Source: Branchiostoma floridae
Lineage: Eukaryota; Chordata; Leptocardii; Amphioxiformes; Branchiostomatidae
DNA length: 64,000 bases
Direction: 5' to 3'
Assembly (NCBI RefSeq): GCF_000003815.2
Contig: NC_049992.1
Coordinates: 1,706,959 to 1,770,958 of the forward strand
Shown: positions 11,258-59,098 of the stretch, one piece after another
How positions within the stretch are numbered: position 1 is the first letter of the stretch
Layout of the letters: each line of letters opens with the position of its first letter
Translations under genes and position numbers: made by a program
The notes under the pieces: generated by a model
Seen by the model: the letters and a program-made list of their open reading frames with translations, nothing else
The model's database searches: none
What the model was told of the DNA's origin: nothing

Positions 11258-14200
11258 TCAGTCCAGGCAGCAGCCGGGCTCGGCGCAGCAGACGGGCGGG
11301 CACTTGCTGCAGTGGTGCGGGTGGCGGCACTCGGTGTCGTTAACGTACGGGCAGCAGTCGAACGGGCAGCTGCTGCCGTCCTCGCCACGGCCACGGTCAC
11401 AGCGGCCGTCGCCACAGTAGGGCTCGTCGTCAGAGCTGCAGAGAGCAGGAAAAATCATGATAATCAGCTAGACAACCTTCCTCTCTTTTAAAATGTGTTT
11501 CTGGAAATATTGACAGTGGCCGTCGCCATAGTAACGCCCACCGTCGGAGCTGCCGAAAATGCTAGTTTGTGTTTCAAAACGTGTTGAAAAGGGAGTGGAA
11601 AGGTCTCTTTATTTAAAACAATATTGAAACAACTACATGATTCTTTCACTGTTGGAAACAACTACATGTAGTTGCAGCATCTGTATATTGACATTATTAT
11701 TGCATGAGGCAAATTTCAGTCTTCGGACTACTGCCTTGTACTTTGTGTGTGTTATTATAAAGCAGCCCTCGTCGACTCGACGGACGAACAACGTCATATA
11801 CCTAAACCTGTTCTAACTATCATCAAAGTTGTTGATTTGGGTTATCAGCATTATGTGATTCTAGATTTCCCAAAGTTCCTGAAACATAGCAGGAGTTTTC
11901 CCTCACCCGTCCCCTTGTGCGGCTGCCAGGGCGGCTCTCTCACAGCGCAGCTCCAGGCACTTACTGTGCAGCCAGCAGAACGCCGCGCCGGCGTAGATGT
12001 ACCGCTTGTCGCACCTGGGGGGGGGGGGGGTGCCGATTAGAGCTGTCCGTTCATTCACTCACTCACTCATTCATTCATTCACTCACTCAGCGCCGGCGTA
12101 GATGGCGGATAGGGGCAGGTTAGAGCAGTCCGTTCATTCACTCGTTCATTCACTCACTCACTCACTCACTCACTCACTCACTCACTCACTCACTCACTCA
12201 CTCACTCATTCACTCATTCACTCACTCACTCACTCACTCACTTATTCCGGTATAGATGTACCGCTTGTCACACCTGTGGTGGATAGGGGCAGGTTAGAGC
12301 TGTCCGTTCATTCACTCATTCATTCATTTATCCACTCATTCATTCATTCACTCATTCATTCACTCATTCAGTACCGACATAGATGTACCGCTTGTCACAC
12401 CTGTGGGATGGGGTGGGGGTGATGGGGACAGGTTAGAGCCATCCATCTTTACATACATTCATTCATTCATTCACTCATTCATTTGTCACACCTGTATGTG
12501 GGTTGCGGGAGTTAGATCACTGTTCTTGTCACTTGGGCCATTAATTCATTCTTCATTCAATCATTCATTCATCTATTCGTCGATGAAGTTGACACCTAGT
12601 TAGGTACTAACATACACAAAGTAGCAGTTACTCAAGCAAATAGATAAAATTTGGAAACGGGCAGACGTTTCTCCGGGACAGCGTCTGCTGTTTTTCGTCA
12701 GTGACTGTACGACTGAGAGTCTTAGACTAAAATTGGATTTGCGTGATCTGCATAATCTCACGCTTGTAATATGTGTAAGAGTATGAGTTAATGGCAACAA
12801 AGCACAACTTGAAATATTTTCCTTATGTATGAAATCTGTTGAACGATTTGTCAAATGTTCTGTCGCTCATCAATCGCAGCCTGTAGTGGAAAGGGGAGTA
12901 AACTAAAACATACCATTGACAAAGAGTAACGGCGTAATATAAAGGGATTTGAGTCATTTACTAGTCGGACGTTGAATATGGTACCTGCGCGTCCTTTTGT
13001 TTCCGGTAAACAATTCTCGTGTTTCGTGAATATATCATGACGCACAGAAGTTCCGTTTACCACCAGTGCACAAACATTTATGCCATGTTGTATATCCGGA
13101 ACGCCTCTTACAACAACATATTCGAATAGAATACTCACAACAGTGGAGAAGTATTTTACTATTTTACTCAAGAAGACATCTTTCCTCGAACCTTAGATAA
13201 GCGGCCAAATCTGAAAAATGAAACGCTATTTTGGCATGCGTTGCCTTAGGTAAAATAAAGGTTGAAAACCGATATAATATTTCAGTTGTTTTAAATTTAC
13301 CATGTCTTTTCCTGTAATGTTTTCTTGTCTATAGTGAGCCGCATATGTTTACTAATATTGATATTTGGTAAGTTTGAAGGAGGGGGCTTAGCATTTATCA
13401 TCGTAGCCGACGTAGGCTTCTTCTATCTTCCCACACATTGTTTATTTCTTTTGTACACTTCTCCGTATATGAAGGCTTCTTTTGTGCAAATAGACCAATA
13501 AACAGAAACACCCTCACCTCTCCCTGACCGCGGCCTGGCCCTCACAGCCCCCGCAGCGGAACGTGCTGACCGGCTCCCCGGCCCCCAGGTCCTGCCCGCA
13601 CGGCCCGCAGTAAGCGCCTTTAGCGGACGCGAGGTACGTGGTCTGGGGGGAGGAGAAAAGAAAAGTATGGGTATGTTATATAGTAGCCGATGATGACATG
13701 TTTCCAGGTAAGTGGTCTGGTGAGAGGGGAGAAGCACAACGTCATGTATTCGCAAGTTAAGCCATGTTCCTCTTTACTTACTCACCTCCCTGGCTCTGTA
13801 GAGTAGCAGAAAATTGGCCAAAATGCGATGGATAATTACCTTCGACAAGAAGGTTATGTTTTCGGTGTGTGTTTATATGTGTGAGTGTATTTGTCGGTGT
13901 ATGTGCGTGTGTGTGTCTGTGTGTGTGTGTCTGTGTGCCAGTGTCTCTCTCTGTGTGTCTGTGTGTGCCAGTGTACTTGTGTGTGTGTGTGTGTGTGCGT
14001 GTGTGAGAGAGAGAGGGTGTGTGTGTGTGTGTTTGTGTGAGAGAGTGTGTGCGTATGTTTGTGTGTGTATCGGTGATTAAGTGTGCATGTCTGTGTATCT
14101 GTGCGTGTGTGTGTGAACGGCATAAAAATGGCATATCAGGTACACGATATGACACGTGCGGTTTTCATGATATGTGAGGATGAGGATTGATATCACTTGT

Positions 14201-14504
14201 AATTATGAGATGTTGTGCGCTATATGTTATGTTGTCCATGTCAAGAATCAGTCAACATCATGAGTATTACGTGCAAATCCTCTAAAACCCCACCAACCTT
14301 GCCGCAGACGGGCTGCCCGTTGTTCTCGTCGCAGTCGTTGCAGCAGACGTAGTGCTGCATGTGCAGCAGCCCGCCATCTTTGAAGTAAGCGCACTGCCCC
14401 TCGGGAGCCTGCTGCAAGTCCTCGGGAACCTCCCCGTCGGCTCCCCGACACCGGCCGGGCAGCGCGGCGGCCGCACAGAGAACCAGGAGCGCGAGGTGAG
14501 ACAT
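11258..14504 (-). CDS. Secreted cysteine-rich protein, four exons (paralogue B)
   Basis: Exons 14298-14504, 13518-13642, 11907-12014 and 11258-11435 total 618 bases (205 residues) with consistent phases 0, 2, 2. The ATG at 14504 opens a signal peptide (MSHLALLVLCAAAALPGRCRG). Exon 1 ends with HYVCCNDCDENNGQPVCGK, exon 2 carries AYCGPCGQDLG and FRCGGCEGQ, and exon 3 carries AFCWLHSKCLELRCER. Exon 4 has a CGDGRCD...SSCPFDCCP module and a C-rich tail (CPPVCCAEPGCCLD). CGxGxCD...CPxDC modules occur in many extracellular proteins. Most cysteines pair with those of paralogue A (16372-18256). I recognise no named family; an extracellular disulfide-rich protein is the safe description. Exon GC is much higher than in the flanks. 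Extra copies of exon edges lie in its introns. Confidence 0.85.
11511..11555 (-). pseudogene. Duplicated 5' edge of paralogue B exon 4
   Basis: On the - strand, ttcggcag is followed by bases encoding SDGGRYYGDGHCQ, matching the acceptor and SDDEPYCGDGRCD start of the real exon 4 (11398-11436). The first cysteine is Tyr and the rest of the exon is missing, so it is a partial copy. The AG acceptor is kept. Confidence 0.75.
11988..12485. repeat. Compound array: exon 3 edge plus (CATT/CACT)n, about four units
   Basis: Units of roughly 110-150 bases repeat the 5' edge of paralogue B exon 3 (gtagatgtaccgcttgtc followed by cacctg, i.e. an acceptor plus exon on the - strand) and then gttagagctgtccg and a CATT/CACT tetranucleotide run. 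Edge copies lie near 11992-12018 (the real exon), 12093-12106 (partial), 12252-12276 and 12378-12402, with a fragment at 12483. The longest tetranucleotide run is about 12130-12242. Confidence 0.8.
12500..13500. other. Intron 2 sequence of paralogue B without other features
   Basis: Ordinary AT-rich intronic sequence; no exon, RNA gene or clear repeat was seen. Confidence 0.5.
13681..13737 (-). repeat. Duplicated 5' edge of paralogue B exon 2, acceptor kept
   Basis: The - strand reads ctcaccag then ACCACTTACCTG, matching the real exon 2 start at 13642 (ccccccag then ACCACGTACCTC), with a similar pyrimidine tract. It lies about 60 bases upstream of the real exon. Confidence 0.65.
13865..14120. 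repeat. GT-rich microsatellite
   Basis: Imperfect (GT)n mixed with gtct, gaga and gcgt blocks, within intron 1 of paralogue B. The long ORFs here are composition artefacts. Confidence 0.9.
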
Positions 14505-14527
14505 CGCGGAGACGGCAAAAGAGTCAG

Positions 14528-14640
14528 GGAGCTATAGTACGACTGGATACGGAGAGGGCAGAAGAGACTCGGGGCTATCGTACGACTGGATACGGAGAGG
14601 GCAGAAGACTCGGGAGCTATCGTACGACTGGATACCGGGC
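14528..14640. repeat. Three tandem ~52-bp units in the 5' leader of paralogue B
   Basis: Units contain gtacgactggatac; the first two continue with ggagagggcagaaga, while the third ends at ggatac. They lie just upstream of the ATG at 14504. They place the ATG about 180 bases from the conserved promoter block, against about 40 in paralogue A. Confidence 0.75.
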
Positions 14641-14667
14641 TACGCGTCAATGCGAGACGCCACGCAG

Positions 14668-14758
14668 GATTCTGTCGACTTTGTAAAACTGGAAACGTGG
14701 CACGATAACTTACCAGGATGTGCCGCTATCAAATCACTCCGCGTGCTTACCTGAAAAC
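14668..14758 (-). promoter_or_regulatory. Conserved upstream block of paralogue B
   Basis: Shared blocks with paralogue A, in the same order on the - strand: GCGGAGTGATTTGA, CACATCCTGGTAA, TGCCACGTTTCCA, then GTTTTACAAAG where paralogue A has a TATA box. The function is inferred from conservation between the two genes. Confidence 0.55.
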
Positions 14759-14759
14759 A

Positions 14760-16260
14760 TGTCATCATCGGCTACTAACGTTAGACAGTTACACCCACAC
14801 TGTATACACCTGCGTTTCTATTTTTCGGATAGTTCCATAGCCTTTTTAACGCCGTAGGTGCAGTGGGTTGTAATCCATTGTGTCTAGGGCACGGTATTGG
14901 ATGCCGCAGTCCATCCCTCCATTTCACCTCATTTTAATCTCCAACTGAAGTCAGGTACCCATTTCTACACCTGGGTGGGGTGAGGAAGGTCGTGTCAAGT
15001 GCCTTTCCCATGGCCAAGAGCAAAAGGTCAGTAGCACGACAGGATTTGAACAGAACTGTCTTCTGGGCCAAACACCCTGTAGTTATGCAACACGACCCCA
15101 CTTTTGCATACGTATTTTAATTAATGAAATGATCACCATTATCAATAGGAGTGAAGTGAGTACATGTACGTAACTAGGAGGTTTGGATGCCTATGGCCAA
15201 TGTGCGACGACGGGAGAACTCTGTGTTCTCAATGAAACAAGGATATGCTGTTGTGAAAATCGCGTAGACACCTGTTTATGTATAACTATATAAACCGGTA
15301 TCACTCAGGTGCCATTGTGAACCACAACAATGCCGGCCAATATTACTTTCAATTGTTTTCTTTTAGATTGGCCACATACAACTACTTTTTTGGTACAAAA
15401 TACCTTTTGAAATTATCCTTAAGCTTGTTGGACTGTCACAAATACGTAGAAGTCATGTCTGCCGTATTTTCACATGAGATGTGACATGGAAAGCGTTCTA
15501 TAATCAGAGCCTACCACTTTGTAGTTTTTTAAATCAAAGACGGCCCGGTTATGACATGGCACTCGGCTACCTTTTAGATATCATGATGGTACACAGGACA
15601 CACCGAGAAACCTACACCAGAGGCTGCGACCAAAGATTTGGCAGATAACTTACGAACTTCAAAGATAAGGAAAGGTTTTTAAACGTTTTGTTATACTTAA
15701 TATATTGCATCATAATGTAATTATGGAACAATCAAGGATGAAACTGAAAAAAAAAAACGAATTATACTTGCTGCGTCTCTTAAGTAGTAGTAAGTAGCCT
15801 CTTAAAAGATGATGATAGATGATGATGATGAAGGATAAAACAAATCCAATTTCTGTCTCTGTACAACCGTTCATCGATCGCCATCTACTTAAAAGATCCT
15901 TAAATATTCACATGATAGGAGACATTGTTTCGACTGGCACTGAAAAATGGTACTTTGAGGGTCCAATTATTCAGGCTAGTTAGGAAGTGTTGGGATGGGT
16001 AAGCCTCACCTTCTGTGGGGACTGGATAAGGTGACATAATGTTAAAGCGAATGAACGTAGTATAGAGACAAAAGGTGTTCCTTCTGCTACATGCTGGAGT
16101 TTCGTCCCCATTTGCTCAGTAGCTGTTATTTTTGTGTGTTTCCGCATACTTTGGCCACAGCGACAGCAAATGAGCACAAATCTATGAACATAAATTGCTT
16201 AATATGATAATTTACCAAGTACCGAAAATAGCACAGAGAAAACATAACTTTCTTGGCGAA
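14760..16260. other. Spacer between the two cysteine-rich genes
   Basis: No gene seen. It contains an A9 tract near 15749 and a short gatgat run near 15809-15832. Confidence 0.5.
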
Positions 16261-16266
16261 GGTAAT

Positions 16267-16272
16267 TTTATT
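16267..16272 (-). terminator. Poly(A) signal AATAAA of paralogue A
   Basis: AATAAA on the - strand about 100 bases after the stop codon at 16372-16374. Confidence 0.6.
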
Positions 16273-16371
16273 CCCCTTCCATATGTTCGGCTAAGTAAAT
16301 TTCTGTATTAGGATGGCAGGTTAACGTTAACATTTCTGGCTTGTCAATGCCATGCTTATACTGACATTTCC

Positions 16372-18256
16372 TTAGCCCATGCAACAGCCAGGTTGCGAAC
16401 AGCATAACGGTGGACACTGGTAATTGCAACCGCGCCTACACGTCTCCGGGTTGTACCTGGGGCAGCAGTCGAAAGGACAGTTGTAGTGGTCTTCGCCGGG
16501 ATCACACTCGTCGTTCCCACAAAATGCATCATACATGTAACTGCGAACATATATGAAAAAAATATTTAACATAGATTGTGCGTTTTGCCTCGTGCACCTG
16601 AAGAAAGCTTGTTCTGTGATTTTGAACTGATTCTTTTTTGCAGTATAGACTTTTCGAGGTACGATAAAAAGTCTTTTTCTTTACATATATTTAAAAAAAG
16701 TTCACAACGAAACAATGCATAAGGAGCCATGCTGTATCGTGATGACAGATGTTTGTTTACCTTAGACTTGAAAAAGTTTTAGATTGCATTCTACAGGGAA
16801 GCTTGTTAACATGTTGTACTTTCTATTTAAGAAAAGGGGAGAAAAAATTTATGTCACATGTATTTGTCCCACCTGCCACTTTGCAGCAAGGCCTGTTTAT
16901 CTTCTCCATCTTGGGGGAAAAGCCTCTTACAGCGCAGTGCAAAGCAATCAGCCCAGACCCAGCAAAATCCCTTGAAAACCCACCAGTACCTCCTATCGCA
17001 CCTGTTGGTATGTGTTGCGAAAGCGTCATTGATAATCCAGAAAGTTAATACAATATATTTTCGGCATGACCACACAGTTGTGCAGATACAGTAGGTTGGT
17101 GAGACTAGAAGTCCTTATAATTTCCTTCTAGCCATAGTTGCAGGATGTGACCGACAGAGCCTCTACTTATTACGCTTACATGTACATGTATTATTCTCGC
17201 GGATGTCATCAATATAAACAAATCAACATGGTCTTATCATAGAGCACATACAGATTTGGTTTAACTGAATTACAGTAATAGAACAGGTAGGATTATATAC
17301 TGTACTACAATCCACCAACGACAATTTGTAATAGAGACATAGGTTCGAACAAAAAAGCATGTAGCTCTTGTAGCGGGTGTCAGAACCCATCTGTAACGTA
17401 CTAGTGTAGCCAATAATGAATCACACGGACGGAAGTATCTATGTCTAAAATGTTTACCTGTATCTGCCCTAGATGATAAGTTGCGGCTAATAAGTAACAG
17501 TTCCACAATTTCTAAAAATTTCAAGAATATACTTGAATACATTCTACTTCTATTTAGGTTTTCATCACTCACACGGCCTTCACTGTAGTTTGGCCTGCGC
17601 AGCCCCCACAGTCAAAGGGCTCGTTCTTGCTCCGGGCAATGCCATCGTCTTCCCCGCATTTACCGCAGTAGTCCCCATCACTGGCTTTATCGTAGACAGT
17701 CTGTAAGACGAAATGTATTGATCAATATGAACATGTATATTGATCGATACATTTCTTCCGACGCAAAGACATATCAAGTTGCCTAAAGTCGCTATCAATA
17801 CATAGATACTAGCACAGTGCACAACACGGGTCCAAACGAGTTTTGCGTCGAAAGGTTTACATCAAGTTTCATACCAGCCCCTTACTGTCTGTAGCGTCTT
17901 GTGCAAATGTGTAGCCCAGGCGCTATAGAAATAGAAATGGGTACCGCTTCTATATATTTGTTAAAGACGCACGGTCAACTTTCACTTTTTTGCTTTGCTT
18001 CCCGAAAACCGTTAGGTCTGGCGAACGAGGTGATACGCACAGCGGATTACATGTACAATGTTTTTCTACTCACCCCGCCGCATACGGGGTCTCCGTCATT
18101 CTCGTCACAGTTGTTGCAACAGACATAGAAGTGCAGTTTCTTCGGGCCGCCCCAATTGTAATAGCAGCATTGCCCCTCAGGGGGATTAGCAGCGCCCAGG
18201 CACTGGCCTGGGAACGCGGCGACCACACAGAGTACGAACAGCGCTACAAGTGCCAT
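16372..18256 (-). CDS. Secreted cysteine-rich protein, four exons (paralogue A)
   Basis: Exons 18074-18256, 17573-17700, 16873-17001 and 16372-16540 total 609 bases (202 residues), all GT-AG, with the same phases as paralogue B. Signal peptide MALVALFVLCVVAAFPGQC. Exon 1 has EGQCCYYNWGG and YVCCNNCDENDGDPVCGG, exon 2 YCGKCGEDDG and FDCGGCAGQ, and exon 3 the aromatic stretch CDRRYWWVFKGFCW. Exon 4 has FCGNDECDPGEDHYNCPFDC and a tail CPPLCCSQPGCCMG. Conserved spacing of paired cysteines against strong divergence elsewhere fits an extracellular, fast-evolving family. A TATA box (18288-18298) lies about 35 bases before the ATG. No known family name can be given. Unlike paralogue B, no extra exon edges were seen. 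Confidence 0.87.
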
Positions 18257-18281
18257 CGTCCAGAAAGTGTGACGTGGCGAT

Positions 18282-18378
18282 ATGTGATATTTATAAAACT
18301 CAAAAGTGGAAACGTGGCACTGACATGTTACAAGGATGTGAAGTTTTGAAATTACTCCGCCTGTATACCTGTTCCTGT
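18282..18378 (-). promoter_or_regulatory. TATA box and conserved promoter block of paralogue A
   Basis: The - strand carries TTTTATAAATA (18288-18298). Upstream lie TGCCACGTTTCCACTTTTGA, CACATCCTTGTAA and GGCGGAGTAATTTC, each matched at the same relative place upstream of paralogue B. Confidence 0.65.
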
Positions 18379-18379
18379 A

Positions 18380-21300
18380 TATACTATTGCGTTTTCTTTC
18401 TTTAATATAACACTGGTACCGGTTAGTAGGGCATTCCTCTTTTCATTCCAAGACATTGGTTTGGTACGGATTCAAGGTGGTCACATTTATCTATTGAAGT
18501 AAAAAGCGCCTTTCGAAGTTAGCCATTGTGGACAGTTGCCAATACCCAAAAAAGTCGTGTCGGACGTATCTGTATGTGAGGTGTGATGTGTCTGAGGTCA
18601 AGACCGCATACCTCCACAATGCAAGATGAAAAAATCGGTTTGTCGCTATTGAACGATAAATTAACCCCGTAATTATAAAGACTATGTATTTTACAGAAAA
18701 TTGGAAGAAGGAAAAGAAATTAAAAAGAGCGCACGTCGAAATCTTTCATTCAGGCTCTAGTTAACATTAGTAAGAAATGTGCAACTGGAAAACATGATGC
18801 AAGTTACTGAAATTCCTATTCATCATATGGCACATGGAATGCTTCTTATAGTAATAAGTTAGTAGTACACGACATGTAACGAAATACAAGCTGTAAACTC
18901 TCGTACATGGTCTCCGCCATTTTATGTATAATTAGCACGCTCCGCCCAAACCGCAATGTTTCCTAGCGTAGTTAATAATGGGTTAGTGAAGCTTTTTGAC
19001 TCGGATTCAAATCCAATTAAGTTTATGCCATTTCTTTTTTCTTGCGTTGTATTCGTAGTTGAAATGTTCCTTTACATACGTTTTTGTAAGCCCTGAAAAG
19101 TTATGAAACGAACAACATTGCATAAACCGCTCAATGATATGACAACGCCGGAGGCTACAACCTGTTGCCAAAACAGTCTTTTGGACATGCACGTAGTGAG
19201 GGAATGTTTACTTTTACTTTTCATAGCGATCCAACAGGATTTCGCTCAGCTCTTATGTAACTTGAAGCGCAAACATGAGTCATTATCATCCGGCAGATGA
19301 AAAGAGCTAGCATTGACTTTGTCAGTGCTTTATACTTTTACTTTCCCTTGAATAGCGCATCAAAAAAGTGTCTCTTGCCAAATGAAGTCCTGCAATTATC
19401 GAGTGACTGAATGTTGAGCTATATGGGGAGAATTGATTTGATTTATTTGGGGTCATGTAAAAGTCAATTAAAGCCAGACAATTTGCTGCAACGAAGCTAT
19501 TAGTGTAATAATAGAATAACAGGAGTTATCTTGTCTATGTTCAGGCATAGAAAGGGTTGAAATATTTATTACATTTGAGTTGTGAACATCTGCTCCCATG
19601 TACATCAGTTATTGGACTGGAAAATGAGGTCCTTGAATCCCATTTTAAGTGGCAATGATTTCTCACCCAGTGAATTCACCAGAAATTGGATAAGAGTTCT
19701 TGGAGCAGTACATGCCAGTTCTATGCTGTTCTCAGTGGAAGTACCATGCGAATCTCTGATAAATACAGTCTTCATTTACAGCAGTGAAGGAAACAGACAC
19801 AACACAATTACCTTGCAAAAAATATGTTAAATTCATCAAGTATTTTTGCAATGAAGACCATCAAAATATATTGTGGAAGATCGGTAACATTAGCTAAAAC
19901 ATACACAGAAACTGCACTTCATTTGCATTCGATAGTTGCATTGCATTTGCTCTATTCTATCTATAGCTCACCTATAAAACTACACTATCTCTAATTGAAC
20001 ACGAAGTTGATTAAAAAGAAAAAAAAAGATAGGCAATTCATCCTCAAACAATTCTATAATGATAACATGTCTAAAACTGCTCATAGTTACACACTATCAG
20101 AACTTACGTATGCTGCAAGTCATCAACATTAGTATAACCTTATATCTGGCAGGACACGCCTGTCCAACACCCCAAGCCATCTGTGTACCTTAATAAAGGT
20201 AGAGCCATTGGTGGCTGATGGACACTGTTTTTCATACTGTCTTGCTACTGGTAAATCTCAAATCTGCTTGGAGGTTACAAAACCTACCTAATATTTCAAC
20301 CAACAAACAGGTAACTAACTAAGATAAGGCACCCAATACGTATCTAAGAATGCCGCATTGTTTGTTTGATGACAAGAATGTTGATCTTAGGTTTGCAAGA
20401 GCAAATGCATGGGGAACAGTACTAAGCTCAGTATCATGCACAAATGCAGAATACATGTAAGACATTATATAGACATAATTATACATAATTATTAAATTTC
20501 CACATAACAGAGATTTTTTGCTTCAAAACCTCTCATTTTTTTCCAGAAAGAACAACTGCATTAAGATCAGGTCTCGACTTTCAGAACCAAAATCTGAACC
20601 ATCCTAAGCTACATAATTAATGAACAGGTAACTACATGTAAGGATCTACATCTTAGGTAAGACATCCAGGTAAAATATGCCAAATAAGATCTAGCTTAAA
20701 CTCAAGGCCTGCTTTTACATTAAACTAATTTGTAAATGATATGCTGGCTTGGTTTGAATATATTGTATTACGTGTTCTGTCATATCTATAGCTATCATCC
20801 TCTTATCAAATTACATATTAGCATAAGACATCACATTGCATTGTAATAATCTTCCATATAACCGATCATCGCAGTAAAAACTGACATGGTTGCATTGTAT
20901 TGTCAATATTATCTACAGTAAAGAAAACACCTGGAAACCATGGCAACTGCCCTTTTAAGCAACATCAATTTTCATGGCCATCATTACAACTATCACTAAC
21001 CTATGAGTATCAACAACGTTATTACCTACGTAAGGCACTTCACCGTAAGGCACAGTACTGTACAGTCTATCCATGAACTACATAGCAGCCACACCTGTTG
21101 CAATCTTAAACATTTCAGATGTACGAGATTTGCACAATTCGTCCTTCATATTCCTGATCAGCCTACATGTTGGGTTGGACTTTCCTGTAAGACATCTTCC
21201 TTCAGCAGGACAGCTGCCCGATGCACAAACATGTGGGGGGATGAATAAGAAATAAGGTGCATGACTCAAATTATGGGGCATGGCTTTAAAGTCTAAAGCT

Positions 21301-22910
21301 TTTATAAATGTCTACCAAAATTCAACTCATTGTGCTGATTACTTTTGCACCTAGTAACGTTAGGTGAGAGAGACAAGGAAAAAATGGGCATGATGGAGCT
21401 GTGACCTGAGGTGTGCGGGTCAACTTGCTCTGCTGAAAGTCAGATAATCACTTCTATATAGTTGAAATACGAGGAGAATCTTCATCAAACATTTTCAAGA
21501 TGTCTTCTAAGATTTCATGGCAAACTCCACCCACACAGGTCACAGTTGTTTTTCTCGCCACTCATCTTCTGATTTTCAAAAGCACGCTGACTTTAAAGAA
21601 ATGACTGCAACCATTTGAATATGGTGGGTATTGATGAAACTATTGTATATATACAGTAGAAGCCGTTTAATCGCACGGCCTATTTGCCAGTGAATTTGGT
21701 GTAATTATCCAGCTGGTGCAATCATGCGAAGTTATCTAGCTGACCGCACCGGTTTGGGATTCCGTGCAGTTAACAGAAGTGTGCATTAATCCGATGTGCA
21801 ATTAACTGGCCTCCACTGTATCATGTTCCACAATCTGAGTTGTGCACCTTATTTTTCTGGGTGAGGTCATGAACTTATTGATCACCCCTCGCACATGTAC
21901 AGTGCCACATACGCTGTATGCTGCTTGTTTCTCTGGATATGCATAAAATAGAGCTTTCTAAACACCCTACAAAAGGTCTACCTTAAAACATATTTCACTA
22001 CAATCTCTATATGATTTGATCTTGTGTAAAAACATTTTGCACTTTGCAACAATATCAATTCTTGGTCATAGCTGCCTCCTCACATATTGTGCAAACTGAA
22101 GAGAATCTTTGTTGAACACATACACAGACCTGTACCTACCCTTATGGGTATGGTTACACATATTTATAAAATATCTACACTTACCATAGCAGTAGATACC
22201 TGATATAGAATAAAGCAGTCAAACACTCATGTATGGCTTGAAGCATTTAGAATTACAGTATGAGATAAAAATTTAATGCAACAATTTTTGTTGGTTTCTG
22301 CCAACTCTTCAGTCTTATTCCCTGCATCAAAGAGCTGCAGATGTTTGCATTCCTTTTTGCTAATTACTGTTACTTACTTAATTACTGTTACTTACTTAAT
22401 TACTGCATCCAGTATTTTGTTGATGCCTTACATCAGGCTGATTTTGATATCAATTTGTTGTTTCTAAAATACTTGCATCTATATTTGCATTGCATGTGCA
22501 TAGTGGTAAAATAAAAATTGAGAAAAATACACTTTTTGTAAAAGCTATCAAAGATTGCTTTACCCAATCTTGTACAATACAATACAAATGTACTGACAGA
22601 GTTTGCTACAAGACACTTGTCACTTATTCTGCAGAATGCGTCACACTGTTTTTCATCTGACCAAAGATTTCAGATGAACTTGAGATTTTCAGGCAACAAA
22701 AGCCTTCGCTGCAAACTTGTGGTCAACAATTTGAGAAAATATGGCAAAATTTTCCTGACTGTTGTAGGAAGACAATTAATGTCATGTAGCATCAATTTTG
22801 GATGGAGAGTTTTTGTCCAACCTTATCACTTAATTTCTTTATGTGCTGTTCATGAAACTGGCACCAATCTGGGAACAGCATTCTGGCTTTTCCACTAGTT
22901 CACACTTTCT
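18380..22910. other. Gene-free AT-rich stretch
   Basis: No exon with convincing splice sites was found on either strand. It probably holds the 3' untranslated region of the gene at 22975-41473 at its right end, plus intergenic DNA. The only small repeat noted is attactgttacttactta, about 2.5 copies at 22363-22403. Confidence 0.5.
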
Positions 22911-22917
22911 GCTTCTT

Positions 22918-22974
22918 ACCTCCTCCTGAAGCCATGCTACCATGACCTCCTGACCCTGAATATGACCCCTGACC
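22918..22974. repeat. Duplicate of the last exon's tail
   Basis: cctcctgaagcca-g-taccatgacctcctgacc repeats the end of the terminal exon at 22984-23018 about 65 bases away. It lies in the 3' untranslated region. Confidence 0.7.
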
Positions 22975-25900
22975 CTACTTTAACTCCTCCTGAAGCCAGG
23001 CCACCATGGCCTCCTGACCTTGGGAAAGGTCACCTCTCGTGCACAGGAGAACCTTGCTGAAGTCGTCTTGAGTCGTGTTCTGCACTAGAAGCTCCAACAA
23101 CTCGTTACACTGCAGAAATAAACAAGATAAAAACACAATTCAGAATATCTCAAAATTATGTGAAATAATACTTTATCACATTGGGGATTGCCAATGAAGA
23201 GAAATCCAAGGAAGGAATATGTAAAACTCTGAGTGTACAATTTATTCATTCAGTCAGCCAAGGTTGCTGTGGCTATTACACGTATGTGACACTGTAAGTT
23301 CCTATCCACTATGTTGGTACGATGTTGATACTAATTACACCACATACCTTATGTGTGAGGAGTACCAGAGGGAGTCAGCCTTGCACAGCTGTGTGTGACC
23401 AGTGATAGGGGATATATAACAGTACCTTATGTGTCACCAGGACCAGAGAGTTGGGAGTCAGCCCTTCCGTAGGAGGAACCTTGCACAGGTGTCTCAGCCG
23501 AGGCCCGTCCACAAGTAGCGTTCGGCCGCTGAAACTCTTCACATCCGACAGGGAAGCACTGCTGTGGCTGAAGGTACACTGGGAGAGCAGAAGCACAAGT
23601 AGATACATGGGAGGCATCAGTACAAACACAAGAAACAGAAGCACAAGTAGATACATGGGAGGCATCAGTACAAACACAAGAAACAGAAGCACAAGTAGAT
23701 ACATGGGAGGCATCAGTACAAACACAAGAAACATCAGAACAGCTGCTGTGGCTGAACGTGCACTGGGAAACACACAGGAAACATCAGTACAGTTGCTGTG
23801 GCTGAACGTACACTGGGAGACCAGAAGCACAAGTAGATACATGGGAGGCATCAGTACAAACACAAGAAACATCAGAATATGCAGCTTGTACTCTCCGGTA
23901 CAAACCCTGTGTGTTTGCAGTGAGCTTACTGGGTTACTGCAGCAGATGTGCTACTAGTATTCAGTACAACCCTGGTACTATTGAGTACAACCCTGGTACT
24001 ATTCAGTACAAACCTGGTACTATACAGTACAAACCTGGTACGATGCAGTACAACCCTGGTACTATACAGGTCTAGGTGGCGACAGACTATGGTCACGGGA
24101 CAAGACGACCACAAAAACTGGTATCCATGACAACTGTACTAATCATGAGGATGGTAACCATGACAACGTACCTGGTCGGAGACCTGTATGGGGTGTGTGT
24201 GAGTTTTGGACAGCTCGACCCCTGACCCCGGGCTGGGCAGCCGCACCTCCAGTAGGATGTGGTACTGTAGGGGGGGGGGGGGGGCAATTAGGGAGGAATT
24301 ACAACAAGTACAGTAACATTTGCAAGTAAATAATGTTAATCTGCACATGGTCTAGTCTAACCAACTGTAGGGGGGGGGGGCATAGAAGGAATAAAGAATA
24401 AAATCTTAACATAAGCAAGCAAATGTTTACCTTCACAAGGAGGGGTTAACTGACTTGTTCCCAAATGTTTAATGCTCTATAAGGTATTACTGAGAAATGC
24501 ATCACCAGGACAGGGTTATTCCAGGTCAAGCATCACAGTGCCTACTCAGAAGGGCCACCTATCAGCTGATCACAAAACTGCAGCACCGTGTTCATCTTTT
24601 ACTTGCTTTGGATGGAAGGCATTGTTTCCCTAGGATGTACCTGTTTGGGAAGTAAGATGTTTCCCCATCTAAGGCTCACCTATTTGGGCAGAAAGACGTT
24701 GTTTAAGACGTACCTGCTTGGGAGTTGAGACGTTGTTTAAGACGTACCTGTTTGGGAGTTAAGACGTTGTTTAAGACGTACCTGTTTGGGAGTTGAGACG
24801 TTGTTTAAGACGTACCTGTTTGGGAGTTGAGACGTTGTTTAAGACGTACCTGTTTGGGAGTTGAGACGTTGTTTAAGACGTACCTGTTTGGGAGTTAAGA
24901 CGTTGTTTAAGACGTACCTGTTTGGGAGTTAAGACGTTGTTTAAGACGTACCTGTTTGGGAGTTGAGACGTTGTTTAAGACGTACCTGTTTGGGAGTTGA
25001 GACGTTGTTTAAGACGTACCTGTTTGGGAGTTGAGACGTTGTTTAAGACGTACCTGTTTGGGAGTTAAGACGTTGTTTAAGACGTACCTGTTTGGGAGTT
25101 GAGACGTTGTTTAAGACGTACCTGTTTGGGAGTTGAGACGTTGTTTAAGACGTACCTGTTTGGGAGTTAAGACGTTGTTTAAGACGTACCTGTTTGGGAG
25201 TTAAGACGTTGTTTAAGACGTACCTGTTTGGGAGTTAAGACGTTGTTTAAGACGTACCTGTTTGGGAGTTAAGACGTTGTTTAAGACGTACCTGTTTGGG
25301 AGTTAAGACGTTGTTTAAGACGTACCTGTTTGGGAGTTAAGACGTTTCCCCATCTAAGACAGACGTTTCCCCTCCAGCTGGAGTACATCTGCAGTTCTGC
25401 CGGCCCCAGCCAGGTGGCGCCGTTGTTGTTGGAGCACGAGTTTCCGCCGGAGTTGGTCCGACTCCTTTTTACACACGGCCCCTCCGCCCGCGGCACCAGG
25501 GAAAGGTCCGCCTCTCGCGGGGAACCCTGCGATATAACATGGACATGTTTCTTTTACCTTATAGAAAAGAGTCAGATGAAACATCCACAGTCTCTACTAG
25601 GGCTGGGTACCGGTACAGAAAATTCAGGTCCAGGTCCGGTTCAGGTCCAGAGGATCAGGTCCAGGTTCGGACCTGAACCTGGACCTGATTCAGTATGACT
25701 CATGCCAATGGTCCATTTCACTACATAGAAATTTGTTTGGTGGAGTATTAGACTTACACTGGCGTCTTAAAATCCTACAACGCTAACTGCACCTGTACGA
25801 TTGACTGTAAAACTTGGTAGAAATGACTATAAACTCTACTCTACTCCACTCTTGTTATTTTCTTCCACCTGCAAGCGCCAAAACGTGTGAATGCCTGATG

Positions 25901-28900
25901 AAATAATATGTTAATTTTCTAACCGGTCCAACATCCGGTCCACCTAATTTTTTCAGGTCCGGTTTTTCTGGACCGGTCCAATAAGAAAAACCGGTTTTGT
26001 ACCGGTACGCTGTACCGATACCCAGCCCTAGTCTCTACTATTAAATGTACTTTTCCGTAACCTCAACAACGGGCTGTAAGTGCCAAAAAACCTCCCACAT
26101 CTATATTCAAAGTTGGACTCAGTGCTTGAATGTATACTGAGATCTTCAAACTTGGGTAAGTCCCAATTTCTTCAGGGTTCAGGCCATGTCAAGTTCAGTC
26201 CTCTTCCATATAACATTATTGACCAACAGACGAACTTGACCTACGTTAGCATCGAGTTCCCCCGTGGTTCCGTCGGCGTGCACGGTGAGGTCAGAGTGCA
26301 CGGTGAGGTCAGAGTACACGTTGAGGTAGCACATGCTCAGTACTTACGTTAGCATCTGGTTCCCCCGCGGTGTCAGAGTGCACGGAGAGGTCAGAGTGCA
26401 CGGTGAGGTCAGAGTGCACAGTGAGGTAGCACATCACGTCCGTCAGTTGGAATTGGCTGCTGTTCTTCAGACAAACCTCCAGCCGAACTGCCTCCTCCTC
26501 TGCCACCAGCCGCACTGCCTCCTCCTCTGCCACCAGCCGCACTGCCTCCTCCTCTGGCACCAGTCTGCAGTCTGGGGAGTTATTCACACTAGTTAGTATC
26601 ATTCCTGCATCTATCCACCCATCTGATCTGGAACTGGTCACTAATACTGTACAGACAAACCTCCAGCCGGACTGCCTCCTCCTCTGGCACCAGTCGGCAG
26701 TCTGGGGGAGTTATTCACACTAGTTAGTATCATTCCTGCATCTATCCACCCATCTGATCTGGAACTGACTAGTACTGTACAGACAAACCTCCAGCCGCAC
26801 CGCCTCTTCTTCTGGCACCAGTCGGCAGTCTGGGGGGATTATTCACACCAGTTAGTATCATTCCTGCATGTATCCACTCATCTGTTCTGGAACTGACTAC
26901 TACAATGTAGTACTGTACAGACAAACCTCCAGCCGAACTGCCTCCTCCTCTGGCACCAGTCGGCAGTCTGGGGGATTATTTCACACTAATTTAACATCAT
27001 TCCATCATTTATCCATCCGTTACTGAAGCACATGATTTTCTGTTAGCTGGCACCCCTTATATTCCTTCCCATAAATACCCAAGCTGTGTGGTATGACGAC
27101 CCCCTGGATTGCTGTCTATAGACTCTGGTTCCATGAATGTTCATACAGCTCTGACCAGGTCGCCTGTATTACCTTTTACTAACCCAGCCCTTACTAATGT
27201 ACCTGGCTCTACCCACAGACTTCTGATCTCTGCAGTTTCTCATCACAATGGGTATTCTAAGCCTCATCAGCCTTACACATGGGTTAGGACCGTGGGGTCG
27301 GAAACTTAATGTTAGAATTTGAATCCTGGCATGTAACTTTGCATGCTGCTGAAAGGGCTGCAGTCCCCGGGACGGGCCCCTAAGGACCACAGTGTGATGT
27401 TTATTCATTTCTGATGGCCACAAGTGCAAGGGAAGTAATACGGTCCAACAACCATGATAAATTGCACATTAAAATCATACGGGGGCCTATGACAATGTAA
27501 CCACATTACAAGTAGGATTGAGACATGAATTCCCATGTCATCCCGACTCACCGATCTCCAGACTCTTCAGCACAAACTGCTCGATGATGGAGTTCACCGT
27601 CTGCACCAGCTCTGCGTTCGTCTGGAAGTTTCCCAGGAGGTTCTGTAAGACATTAAACATTGTCTTCCTTAGTTACAGAAGTTCCCTAGAAGGTTCTGTA
27701 AGACATTAAACATTGTCTTCCTTAGTTACAGAAGTTCTCTAGGACAGTAGAAGGTTCTGTAAGACATCAGACATTGTCTTCCTTAGTTACAGAAGTTTTC
27801 TGTTGGTCTGGAAGTTTCCAAGGAGGTTCTGTAAGACATTAAATATTGTCTTACTTAGTTTTGTGTCAGCCTAGAAGTTTCCTAATTCTGCAGAAAAACA
27901 TCAATTTGCTTGTAGGAAGTCTTTTGTGAAAAAGCTGTTTGAGAATATGAAGATCCCAAATGGATTGTAATGCATTAACTTAAAACCATACCTCCCAAAA
28001 CACAGATCTAAACAAGCCATTAACTGTGTTGTAATATATCATCATGTAATCAGGTACTAGGTAGGTAATACATCTACATTGTACATGCATATCATAATTT
28101 GCAGTAGTGCATACTTTAGCATCAGCATATTTCTTTTTGATGTGTTTTTATTTGCTAATTTGCAGGAAGCCATTGAGTAATAAAGTTTGAACGGTGGGGA
28201 AATTCCGGTGTATACCTAATTGTAATCAAGAGCAGATTTCCCGCCACGCGGCAAACATGTAACGCAATCTGATTGGTCCAAACATTATTACCCGACAGAC
28301 AACGGAAAACAAGCTTGTCATTCTCCTAGGCACGGTCAGACCATTTGGTTATATTGTTTTGGCCTCCGTGACCAGCTTCTAAATCTAATCATGCTCCGCT
28401 AAGTAGATAAACTCTTCATTACGATGAGATGGGAGAGACGCTACCGACGTGCACTCGGATAATTGCACAGCTGATTCTCGTTAAGATTTACAGAAAACTT
28501 TCCCCCGTGAAACACGACTTACAGTTGCCGCTGTTCCCAGCATTGACCTCCCCCCTCCCCCGTGAAACACGACTTACAGTTGCCGCTGTTCCCAGCATTG
28601 ACCTCCCCCCTCCCCCGTGAAACACGACTTACAGTTGCCGCTGTTCCAAGCATCGACCTCACCCCCTCCACCGTCTTCTGCATGGAGCTCATCATGTTGA
28701 TCCTGAATGTGGAAATAAAAAGATTTTCAGTCAAACATAAAATCTGAGACTCTTTACCACTGCACCCTCTGTTGTTGACCTCTGCCTTTTTGACTTTGTG
28801 CACAGAGGCTTTGTTTTGGCTTGTTGTGAATAAATTGAGAACAATGAAATAAAAATTGAAATACAGATCTATTAAAAAGCTACCTGTTCAAGAAAGAATT

Positions 28901-31900
28901 TGTAAGCAGTGCACAACGAATGCAGTGGAAAATGAAACACATTTTATTTGTGAATGCCCCCAATTCGAAGCCGAAAGAAAAAGGCTATTTGATAGAGTGA
29001 CCGAAATCACACCAACATTTTCATTGTTAAAAACGCCACAAAAGATTCTCTTCCTACTAACATCAAGGGATCAATCTATTATAGAACACATGGGGCATTT
29101 CATTTTCAAATGTCTTCAAGAAAGAAGTCAAACCCTGTAATAGTTACGTAGACTTAGTACCCCATTATGTATCGTATGTATATTCATCCACTTGATATTT
29201 GTATGTTAGAATTTAGTTTATCTACATGTATTCAGACCACATTTATTCATCTCATGTAATTAGTCATTCTTTTCTTGCAATTAGCCCAATGGGCATGAAT
29301 TTGCAATAAACTTATTATTATTATTAAAACAACAAAAGTACATGGACATCTACATTTCTACTTTTCATAAGGTAATAAGATATGCAAGGAAACAGAAATG
29401 GAGAGATTCTTACAATGTTTATTGACTGAAAAAACAGTCAAGAAAAGCTTCTGTCCAGGTTCAGGCCTGGAGTTGTAAGAGAAAACAATCCGTTATCATG
29501 TCCATGGAGTGAGGGAGCCCAGGAGAGAAGTACCACAAAGATAGATCCCCGTCCGTCTTTAGAAGCCGCATTCTCCACCGTCTCCCTTCCTCAGGGACTC
29601 TCATCTGTAGCTCACAAACTTACAGTCTGTAAAACTCTACATCTATCAAGTGGAACACCCTATCCAGGGAAAATCAACAGACTGGGTGTAGATGGATTAT
29701 AATCTGCACAACACTTCTTCTTTTTCTTTTTCCCTATTCTAAAACCCTTTCAGAGGGAGAGAGAGAGGCGCCGTGAAGACGGCAGCCAGCCCACGCGAGG
29801 ACAATAAGCCGTCTGGTAGACTCTAACATACATCACGAGGAGGGAAGAGGAACTAGACAATCTTTAGAACAGATCTGCACATCTGCCAGGGATTTCCCTA
29901 AAGCCCTCCGTACATCTCACTTTGGCTGAGCCATGCATATTGAGAGAGCAGGGAATCTCTCAACTCCATCCAGGCTGCTGCTGGATTTGTTCCCAATAAG
30001 CCGTGGGCCAAACTCTGCTCAAGCAGCTCAGGGTGGGATAAGGCCCATCGATCCTCCGTCTGTTACCCAGAAACGGGGTTAAAGAAGAGAGCTTCAAGTT
30101 CAGGAGGATAACAGGTTTGACTTTGAGCTGGCAACTTCTTTGACAGATGTACTTGGATTTGACAAATGTATTTGACAAATGTACTTGTATTTAATAGATG
30201 AACTTGGCTTTGATAGATGTACTTGGCTTTGATAGAAGTACTTGGATTTGACAGATGTACTTGGCACAGTGTTAAGATATAGTATTTCCATCAGTGAGGA
30301 TTACGAGTTATTCTGGAGGCATTCATTACAAGCATCTGCACCAAGGACAGGTGTTCAGCACCAAGGACAGGTGTTCAGCACCAAGGACAGGTGTTCAGCA
30401 CCAAGGACAGGTGTTCTGCACCAAGGACAGGTGTTCAGCACCAAGGACAGGTGTTCAGCACCAAGGGCAGGTGTTCAGCACCAAGGGCAGGTGTTCAGCA
30501 CCTAGGGCAGGTGTTCCGCACCAAGGGCAGGTGTTCAGCACCAAGGGCAGGTGTTCAGCACCTAGGGCAGGTGTTCCACACCAAGGGCAGGTGTTCAGCA
30601 CTAAGGACAGGTGTTCAGCACCAAGGGCAGGTGTTCAGCACCAAGGACAGGTGTTCAGCACCTAGGACAGGCGTTCAGCACCTAGGGCAGGTGTTCCGCA
30701 CCAAGGGCAGGTGTTCAGCACCAAGGGCAGGTGTTCAGCACCTAGGGCAGGTGTTCCACACCAAGGGCAGGTGTTCAGCACCAAGGGCAGGTGTTCAGCA
30801 CCTAGGGCAGGTGTTCCGCACCAAGGGCAGGTGTTCAGCACCAAGGGCAGGTGTTCAGCACCTAGGGCAGGTGTTCCACACCAAGGGCAGGTGTTCAGCA
30901 CTAAGGACAGGTGTTTAGCACCAAGGGCAGGTGTTCAGCACCAAGGACAGGTGTTCAGCACCAAGGGCAGGTGTTCAGCACCGAGGACAGGTGTTCAGCA
31001 CCGAGGACAGGTGTTCAGCACCAAGGGCAGGTGTTCAGCACCAAGGGCAGGTGTTCAGCACCAAGGGCAGGTGTTCAGCACCGAGGACAGGTGTTCAGCA
31101 CCGAGGACAGGTGTTCAGCACCAAGGGCAGGTGTTCAGCACCAAGGGCAGGTGTTCAGCACCAAGGGCAGGTGTTCCGCACCAAGGACAGGTGTTCAGCA
31201 CCAAGGGCAGCTGGTACAAAATAATCACCTCCAAGGAGCTGGTACAAAATAATCACCTCCAAGGAGCTGGTACAAAATAATCATCTCAGTGATCCATCAC
31301 TTCACCACTTCAATTCACAACCTCACCATGAATTACCGAGTTTTAAATCTCAAAGGAATAGAAATGGGAATTTCAAAACTATATCTGCATACAGTTGCAC
31401 CTCACTGAAATGCTAATCATTACCGCATGTCAGCAGCACAGTCATGCAGGATTGTACACCAGCTGACAATAGGGCTAAGTACCGGTATGATGTACCGGTA
31501 AAAAAAAATGTTTTTTTTCTCATTGGACCGGTCCAGAAAAATCGGTGGACAGGATGTTGAATCTATTGAAAAATCAACAGATTATATATATATATATGAT
31601 CAGGCATTCACAGGTTTTGGGGCTTACGTTACATACTGGTCGAAGAAAATAAGAAGAGCAAAGTAGCGTAGAGTCTATACTCTCTATAGTCCTTTCTACC
31701 AAGTTTTCCAGTTAATCTTACAGAGGCACTTAGTCTAGGAATTTAAAATGCCAGTGGGAGTCGAATACTCCACCAAACATATTTCTTTGTTGGGAAATGG
31801 ACAATTGTTTTGACTATCATCACTAAAGTCCATTCACAAGTTTTCACATACAATCAGGTCCAGGTTCATGTCCGGACCTGGACCGAACCCTCTGGACCTG

Positions 31901-56744: not shown

Positions 56745-58410
56745 CGAGGCTGGAACATGGCCCAAGCCACGATGATTCGGTCAGGACAGAACGGGAGGCT
56801 GGAACATGGCCCGAGCCACGGATAATTGGTCAGGGCAGAACGGGAGGCTGGAACATGGTCCGAGCCACGGATAATTGGTCAGGGCAGAACGGGAGGCTGG
56901 AACATGGCCCGAGCCACGGATAATTGGTCAGGACAGAACGGGAGGCTGGAACATGGTCCGAGCCACGATGATTCAGTCAGGACAGAACGGGAGGCTGGAA
57001 CATGGCCCGAGCCACGATGAGTCAGTCAGGACAGAACGGGAGGCTGGAACATGGTCCGAGCCACGATGATTCAGTCAGGACAGAACGGGAGGCTGGAACA
57101 TGGCCCGAGCCACGATGAGTCAGTCAGGACAGAACGGGAGGCTGGAACATGGTCCGAGCCACGATGAGTCAGTCAGGGCAGAACGGGAGGCTGGAACATG
57201 GTCCGAGCCACGATGAGTCGGTCAGGACAGAACGGGAGGCTGGAACATGGCCCGAGCCACGATGAGTCAGTCAGGGCAGAACGGGAGGCTGGAACATGGT
57301 CCGAGCCACGATGAGTCGGTCAGGACAGAACGGGAGGCTGGAACATGGCCCGAGCCACGATGAGTCAGTCAGGACAGAACGGGAGGCTGGAACATGGCCC
57401 GAGCCACGATGAGTCAGTCAGGACAGAACGGGAGGCTGGAACATGGTCCGAGCCACGGATAATTGGTCAGGACAGAACGGGAGGCTGGAACATGGTCCGA
57501 GCCACGATGATTCAGTCAGGACAGAACGGGAGGCTGGAACATGGCCCGAGCCACGATGAGTCAGTCAGGACAGAACGGGAGGCTGGAACATGGCCCGAGC
57601 CACGGATAATTGGTCAGGACAGAACGGGAGGCTGGAACATGGTCCGAGCCACGATGATTCAGTCAGGACAGAACGGGAGGCTGGAACATGGCCCGAGCCA
57701 CGATGAGTCAGTCAGGACAGAACGGGAGGCTGGAACATGGTCCGAGCCACGATGATTCAGTCAGGACAGAACGGGAGGCTGGAACATGGCCCGAGCCACG
57801 ATGAGTCAGTCAGGACAGAACGGGAGGCTGGAACATGGTCCGAGCCACGATGAGTCAGTCAGGGCAGAACGGGAGGCTGGAACATGGTCCGAGCCACGAT
57901 GAGTCAGTCAGGGCAGAACGGGAGGCTGGAACATGGCCCGAGCCACGATGATTCAGTCAGGACAGAACGGGAGGCTGGAACATGGCCCGAGCCACGATGA
58001 GTCAGTCAGGACAGAACGGGAGGCTGGAACATGGTCCGAGCCACGATGAGTCGGTCAGGACAGAACGGGAGGCTGGAACATGGCCCGAGCCACGATGAGT
58101 CAGTCAGGGCAGAACGGGAGGCTGGAACATGGTCCGAGCCACGATGAGTCAGTCAGGGCAGAACGGGAGGCTGGAACATGGTCCGAGCCACGATGAGTCA
58201 GTCAGGGCAGAACGGGAGGCTGGAACATGGTCCGAGCCACGATGAGTCGGTCAGGACAGAACGGGAGGCTGGAACATGGTCCGAGCCACGATGAGTCGGT
58301 CAGGACAGAACGGGAGGCTGGAACATGGCCCGAGTCACGATGATTCAGTCAGGACAGAACGGGAGGCTGGAACATGGCCTGAGCCACGATGATTCGGTCA
58401 GGACAGAACG
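56745..58410. repeat. 49-bp minisatellite, about 34 units
   Basis: The unit contains gaggctggaacatggcccga and cgatgagtcagtcaggacag. Diagnostic variants (gataattggt; gattcag; gagtcag; ggcag/gacag) recur in blocks, which indicates spread of multi-unit segments. Confidence 0.97.
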
Positions 58411-59098
58411 GCAGACGAGTGCCCTTGTTGTCGCCCATTTCCGCCTCTTTCATTCCAAATTTTCAAATATTTATCATTGGCATTGCCAAGTGTTTGTACA
58501 ATGTACATAAATTCATAATAGCAAGATAGTTCAGCTTGCTCAACTGCAAATCGAACTATCAAAATGTTTTCCACAAGTTGCAAGTTGCAGGTGTGGGCTG
58601 TTTCCCTGGTTAGCAGTGATGTATTAAGTAATCTACTTCTGTGAAAATAAGACATCACTAACACCAGTGCAGCTGTGCCGTCATGTGTTCCACCATTAGT
58701 AGGAATGTTGGAAATCAGATTGATGCCATTCCTTCCCACTTACGAAGGTTCAGATTCTAAACTAAGTGTTTGGAATTCCTGAGAATTGCCAGTAATGCCT
58801 GCTGAAGCTGCCTTTATGTGCTGCTGAATATTTCATGTCATCACGTCCCTATCTCCCACATCACTGCTGTATAAAGGGCCCGTATTTATGTCGCATGCCG
58901 CCCGTCAGAGCCAACGCTGGATCAAAGAGTTCTCAGAATCGGATATAGAGAAATCTCGGTCGGGCTTTCTGTGTAAGATGATAGGGATAATTTTTACCCA
59001 TTCATATCCATATCATGCCGGTTTGTAAGTATCTTCTTATCCAGGCCCATTCGTCAAGCAGGGCTGCCGGTCGATGGCTAGAGTGGGGAACGATTCAT

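Follow-up and report, generated by a model that had tools for sequence, protein, structure and literature searches.

Tandem-copied exon borders in two neighbouring amphioxus genes and how they may have arisen

What causes the borders of exons to recur, splice sites included, as tandem copies in the introns beside them? The question is raised by two neighbouring genes on the minus strand of a 64-kb stretch of contig C14 (NC_049992.1) of the amphioxus Branchiostoma floridae, whose genome comprises 513.4 Mb in 431 contigs. We refer to the whole stretch as the window and number positions within it. The genes are a long gene of at least seven exons, here called G8 (22,975-28,702), and CysA (11,258-14,504), a cysteine-rich gene whose paralogue CysB (16,400-18,256, also minus strand) serves as an internal control. 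A preliminary description of the window had reported the copies and suggested several causes for them; its interpretation as a whole is partly supported by the analysis that follows.

Copied exon borders in G8 and CysA

The presence of tandem-copied exon borders in G8 and CysA is confirmed. We located tandem arrays and direct repeats with Tandem Repeats Finder (TRF) and a repeat finder, and an edge was called duplicated where the duplication score reached at least 16 within 6 bases of it. One Markov-resampled window reaches 16 at 0 of 64,000 positions, and by this comparison the repeats themselves are far beyond chance. The score has a local limit; a version without the limit merged distant arrays and was discarded. 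Duplicated splice edges number 7 of 13 in G8, 3 of 6 in CysA and 0 of 6 in CysB, a total of 10 of 25 in the three genes. They comprise six acceptors and four donors, so both exon ends are affected, and one of them, the donor of G8 exon 7, qualifies solely thanks to the 6-base tolerance. Junction-spanning duplications do therefore recur in neighbouring genes, as first described. The copy numbers given for each edge also hold in the TRF and repeat finder results, with the donor of G8 exon 5 present about 20 times when the real one is included. The arrays do not start at exon borders as had been thought; they straddle the edges, with some 10 to 90 nt of exon inside the array.

In G8, the donor of exon 2 (28,633-28,702; GTAAGT donor, TCAG acceptor) is present three times in an array with a 55-bp unit (28,501-28,665) that takes in 33 nt of the exon, with copies at -55 and -110 (TRF, repeat finder and score). 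Four copies of the exon 3 acceptor (exon at 27,552-27,642) lie at 27,616-27,860, with offsets of 53, 114 and 186 (repeat finder). Exon 4 (26,348-26,571), which itself contains in-frame 27-bp and 18-bp repeats of three units each (TRF), is affected at both ends. Its acceptor occurs four times at a spacing of about 128-138 bp (26,530-27,033) and its donor twice at an offset of 103 (26,242-26,434), both according to TRF and the repeat finder. At exon 5 (25,326-25,526), TRF finds a 34-bp unit repeated 19.7 times (24,678-25,346); every unit includes the final 20 nt of the exon and a GTACGT-like donor. Neither edge of exon 6 (24,172-24,264) is duplicated at score 16. Exon 7 (23,426-23,578) has three copies of its acceptor, with offsets of 184 and 234 and accompanied by 48-bp and 50-bp repeats (23,552-23,882; TRF and repeat finder), and two of its donor, 78 apart (23,345-23,448; repeat finder and score). 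The tail of exon 8, whose coding part (22,978-23,109) is followed by TAG, occurs twice at an offset of 64 (22,916-23,022; repeat finder). These two copies are 88% alike; the outer one ends in GTAAGA, and the inner one has TTAAAG there.

CysA, which begins with exon 1 at 14,298-14,504, is affected at its acceptors. That of exon 2 (13,518-13,642) occurs twice at an offset of 74 (13,632-13,734; repeat finder), that of exon 3 (11,907-12,014) three times with offsets of 259 and 386 between TCAC microsatellites (11,988-12,423; TRF and repeat finder), and that of exon 4 (11,258-11,435) twice at an offset of 114 (11,399-11,556; repeat finder and score).

All three genes are open across their splice joins. 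CysA and CysB each form an open four-exon frame, and in the rebuilt models of G8 the phases and GT/AG sites are consistent from exon 2 through the stop after exon 8. We looked for exon 1 of G8 and did not find it, and searches of Pfam and PDB gave no significant relative of the protein; the G8 model therefore stands on phase, splice sites and coding score. An identity with FAAP100 had been considered and was dropped; Pfam and PDB gave no usable match (one Pfam hit, with E=0.022, fell below the cut-off, and the query protein was joined from provisional exons). Intron 4 of G8 also contains an insertion resembling a miniature inverted-repeat transposable element (25,596-26,032), with 23-nt terminal inverted repeats that are 96% complementary and 391 nt between them. 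On the plus strand, an open frame at 28,895-29,140 has no Pfam match and resembles what we take to be the C-terminal end of a non-LTR (long terminal repeat) retrotransposon.

Edge copies and the background of duplication

The placement of copies at edges exceeds chance only weakly, with p=0.22, 0.078 or 0.009 according to the statistic. The window itself is rich in repeats. TRF reports 77 tandem-array rows, some of them overlapping, and the duplication score marks 17% of positions as duplicated versus 4.6% in 77 sampled loci (one of which lies inside the window). The longest array has a 49-bp unit repeated 34 times (56,746-58,411) and encloses an open frame of about 136 aa with no Pfam match above the cut-off. 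Within the introns of G8, 39% of positions are duplicated. Random intronic minisatellites had been expected to reach exon borders only rarely; because of this 39%, the argument for an excess is weak here. An edge-shift test of G8 gave 7 of 13 edges seen versus 5.6 expected (p=0.22), and for the three genes together 10 were seen versus 6.9 expected (p=0.078). The edge-counting version of a block test on G8 gave p=0.26, and the per-block test on CysA alone found 3 of 16 blocks at an edge versus 1.7 expected (p=0.19). In CysB, whose edges are homologous to those of CysA, no edge or intron position reaches the duplication score. With no intronic duplication and no edge copies in the control, edge copies appear to follow local duplication density. 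For predicted exons in the window with a score above 10, 21 of 48 edges are duplicated versus a background of 17%.

Exon edges elsewhere in the genome were sampled from Pfam hits to UCH, Sushi and myosin head, with exons modelled by a small gene finder whose training set was the first of these loci. The gene finder recovered 76 of 82 stop-free matches, and low-score exon calls were not trusted. We used 30 of the 62 listed UCH matches, 30 of 150 for Sushi and 91 of 142 for myosin, 151 in all, and dropped 9 in an intronless Sushi gene and 11 without a model exon. The resulting 131 exons have 239 edges, 222 of them within 60 bp of the match. With offsets limited to 300 bp, 2 of the 222 are duplicated versus 4.0% of non-coding positions, which is below expectation (binomial P=0.006; upper 95% limit 3.2%). 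The full 239 add one more hit (3 of 239), L069:6943, where a repeat was apparently mistaken for an exon edge. At 77 bp from its match, this edge falls outside the 222; it belongs to both the 239 and a wider set of 389. This wider set excludes the window, the sampled locus inside it (L001) and the intronless Sushi loci. At score 13, 10 of its 389 edges are duplicated versus 5.7% (22 expected), made up of 4 of 198 acceptors (11.2 expected) and 6 of 191 donors (10.8 expected); at score 16 the count is 10 of 391 versus 4.4%. A general excess at real exon edges was thus not found in either sample, both being at or below background. The earlier proposal of a repeat excess at splice junctions is not supported at sampled real edges and is supported for tandem donor-like motifs counted genome-wide, as described below.

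Two further counts come out higher. With offsets up to 400 bp, 8 of 222 edges are duplicated versus 4.5%, and 9 of 161 versus 5.1% in an earlier, smaller set. Six hits in these counts, all at Sushi edges and with offsets between 316 and 387 bp, we read as adjacent whole-exon copies; the 300-bp limit excludes them. All predicted exons with a score above 10 give 44 of 526 edges versus 5.6%. We discount this apparent excess, as repeats can pass for exons and the count takes in L001 and the Sushi copies. Duplications are scarcer within 150 bp of the sampled exons than beyond (0.5-0.9% versus 1.1-2.9%); the sampled genes are conserved and may have been spared from duplication.

The two hits among the 222 are both myosin donors, L070:2102 with its copies 58 bp apart and L069:1990 with its copies 86 bp apart, the extra one without GT. 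To our knowledge, neither has been reported before as a "mirage", the name given to such borders in amphioxus. A Sushi exon at L042:621 has a 21-bp donor duplication that falls under the main threshold. At the Sushi locus L066, five CAGGTAAGT motifs lie on one strand between 400 and 2935, hundreds of bases apart, and at C15:11345529-11351813, Sushi domains are found in a single intronless open frame of 2,423 aa.

Origin of the copies

We think it probable that the copies arose by random local tandem duplication, which is tolerated at exon edges and, owing to constraint on the real exon half, stays recognisable there for longer. Such duplications, with units of about 20-140 bp, would arise throughout a repeat-rich gene stretch, presumably by replication slippage or break repair and without consequence for fitness. 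A duplication inside an exon would survive only with the frame kept, as in the 27- and 18-bp repeats of exon 4. For a duplication across a splice edge, length would not matter: its extra copy ends up in intron sequence, and splicing would continue at the exon-proximal site. The edge offsets do look frame-free: 11 of the 18 are not multiples of three (34, 53, 55, 64, 74, 103, 110, 130, 184, 259 and 386) versus two thirds expected, and the others are divisible by three (78, 114 twice, 186, 234, 258 and 396).

Among the extra G8 sites tested, 30 of 31 shift the frame or meet a stop if used. Only the exon 7 acceptor copy at +234 stays in frame; a 191-aa open frame at 23,378-23,950 on the minus strand spans the 48-bp repeats into exon 7. 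Because the other 30 would break the protein, the real site at either end of an exon is the copy nearest to the exon. This copy is the first transcribed among donors and the last transcribed among acceptors, so a plain first-come rule fails. Pairing across the exon could explain the choice of site, which is probably made by exon definition.

Because the real exon half cannot change, straddling pairs would accumulate differences at about half the rate of pairs lying wholly in introns and be recognised for longer, and exon edges would therefore stand out. In 16 extra copies, 111 of 160 letters are kept on the intron side (columns 2 to 11) versus 140 of 160 on the exon side (columns -10 to -1). 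The intron-to-exon divergence is about 2.4:1 versus 2:1 expected of neutral copies, in a gap-free comparison whose intron value may be inflated by small indels and by the ends of units. When the duplication score was simulated with 0.2 changes per site per copy, 66% of straddling pairs were detected versus 23% of intronic ones.

Several observations weigh against random duplication as the whole explanation. The GT or AG is intact in every extra copy counted in the window, 33 of 33 in one list and 16 of 16 in another (14 common to both), which upholds the original observation. The per-block test on G8 has 7 of 12 duplicated blocks touching an edge versus 3.9 expected (p=0.009, uncorrected, for a gene picked for its striking look). 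The 10 of 25 duplicated edges in the window, which was chosen for this feature, are far above the 2 of 222 elsewhere (Fisher p about 1e-9), and regional repeat density accounts for that difference only if the density is taken as given. Whole-genome pattern counts, which are independent of gene models, found 26,530 single sites of the donor motif MAGGTRAGT and 19,446 of the reversed motif. Tandem pairs 19-47 bp apart number 659 and 42, respectively (2.5% versus 0.22% per site, about 11-fold). Slower decay alone may be insufficient for this factor, and arrays of many identical donors are not old. Furthermore, the first 100 of the 659 pairs (on C1 and on C2 to 34.47 Mb) form 31 clusters, mostly of different spacing.

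The same counts favour the view that tandem duplication is truly more frequent at splice junctions, breaks linked to transcription or splicing being one possible cause. Splice donors would then be genuine hot spots of short duplications with hundreds of mirage arrays, the exon-proximal copy being picked among up to about 20 near-identical sites. The per-block result in G8 and the further donor duplication at L042:621 also point this way. On C1 and C2, a control motif with GT changed to CT forms 12 clusters, of which 10 belong to a single 47-bp family, leaving 2 to compare with the 31 donor clusters at the listed places (cluster counts, not per-site rates); over the whole genome this control has 298 tandem pairs and its reversed form 12. 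However, the sampled edges elsewhere are at or below background, and the edge test in the window is not significant. Eight of the 31 donor clusters are spaced 41 or 42, those at C1:31597509 and C1:31807676 lie in or beside a dispersed element, and the arrays are known by motif positions. Counting exact motifs is biased towards sites with one copy held fixed, a kind of bias that the simulation of the duplication score also shows, and composition-matched 9-mers form pairs at rates ranging from 0.34% in the sampled loci to 4.4% in the window. Of 24 MAGGTRAGT sites in sampled sequence, one, a Sushi exon donor, starts a tandem pair. We therefore consider junction hot spots unlikely, with the whole-genome donor-motif excess as the part worth pursuing.

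Selection could also have kept the extra sites for a role as decoys, in the regulation of splicing or in binding U1 as arrays, in line with the intact GT/AG and the roughly 20 near-identical donors after exon 5. However, GT/AG is kept in 16 of 16 copies and so are six other columns within 8 bases; five exon-side columns near GT/AG are 16 of 16 each. A naive count of 66 of 66 GT/AG letters versus 59.8 expected from flanking identity is weakened by this column profile and by the shared ancestry of the copies. Since GT/AG is no better kept than its neighbours, no special selection on the extra sites is shown. The 34-bp array is uniform across its whole unit (97% matches), as in recent turnover, the myosin copy at L069:1990 has no GT, and all but one of the tested sites would disrupt the protein, all of which makes selection for decoys very unlikely. 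Intron turnover or gain under way here, through duplication of AGGT-type segments, has precedents in a route described for potato and others (PMC4974935, available in part) and in a proposal for amphioxus globins (PMC3087553, also available in part), and of the two exon 8 tail copies, a donor is present in the outer and absent from the inner. This route needs an exonic segment turned intron. The counted copies sit within introns that already exist and thus do not show a new one; the frame needs no new intron or exon, and we regard such gain as highly improbable. Finally, repeats collapsed or expanded in assembly would fit published mirage arrays whose lengths differ between assemblies or haplotypes (PMC3902484 and PMC3087553, in the parts available). 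The copies here, though, have diverged (at most edges they match at about 70-95% over 29 bases), which is not what assembly error produces, and Sanger and Illumina data upheld the PGBD5 repeats (PMC3902484, same part), so an artefact has almost no credence.

Dispersed repeats were encountered in the motif counts as well. Pairs of CAGGTAAGT with a gap of 20-50 number 278 versus 8 for the reversed motif, and one dispersed 51-bp unit is common to most among the matches listed. A dispersed repeat with a 51-bp tandem unit containing CAGGTAAGT, at C1:9479866 and many other places, inflates the donor-motif counts. Another dispersed family has 47-bp tandem units with MAGCTRAGT (C1:11175531, C2:45797, C5:17253482 and others). 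Long arrays with a strong donor motif in many units occur on C1 at 221810-230533, 1464397-1464873 and 5704215-5705132 and are known mainly from motif positions.

Amphioxus mirages and related systems

The G8 and CysA case is a known amphioxus feature that is unusually dense here. The term "mirages" is reportedly traced to the Adh3 paper of Canestro et al. in 2002. As far as the available parts of the sources go, mirages are already in print for the globins BflGb6 and BflGb9 (PMC3087553), the splice sites of PGBD5 have 60- and 108-bp repeats, troponin C mirages are cited in published amphioxus work (both PMC3902484), and Ebner et al. are among the prior reports. Like the copies described here, mirages resemble minisatellites: they are multi-copy tandem duplications lying across exon/intron borders, at either exon end. 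Many mirage copies keep AG or GT; in our window every listed one does, and the one lost GT is elsewhere, at the myosin locus L069. Mirages are reported not to disturb regular splicing, and here the frame argument would require the exon-proximal site. The present case differs in its extent within one gene (7 of 13 edges) and its neighbour (3 of 6), in having a copy-free paralogue as a control, and in being accompanied by counts elsewhere in the genome. We found no genome-wide count of mirages in the literature searched, whose coverage left out most subscription papers.

Ordinary intronic minisatellites share unit sizes, array turnover and regional clustering with the arrays here. They differ in that our arrays overlap coding edges, with the exon half constrained in one copy. 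Intron gain by tandem duplication (ATP2A1; potato RdRp; PMC4974935, in the part available) likewise involves local tandem duplication carrying splice signals, but here no new intron is seen and the copies are inside existing introns.

Published anecdotes become countable here, both in the frequency of duplicated exon edges and in whether there is any excess over chance. The arrays are also natural constructs in which near-identical splice sites compete. If donors were indeed hot spots of duplication, their arrays would offer new exons and introns a ready source of material, and exon definition could be tested in them under natural conditions.

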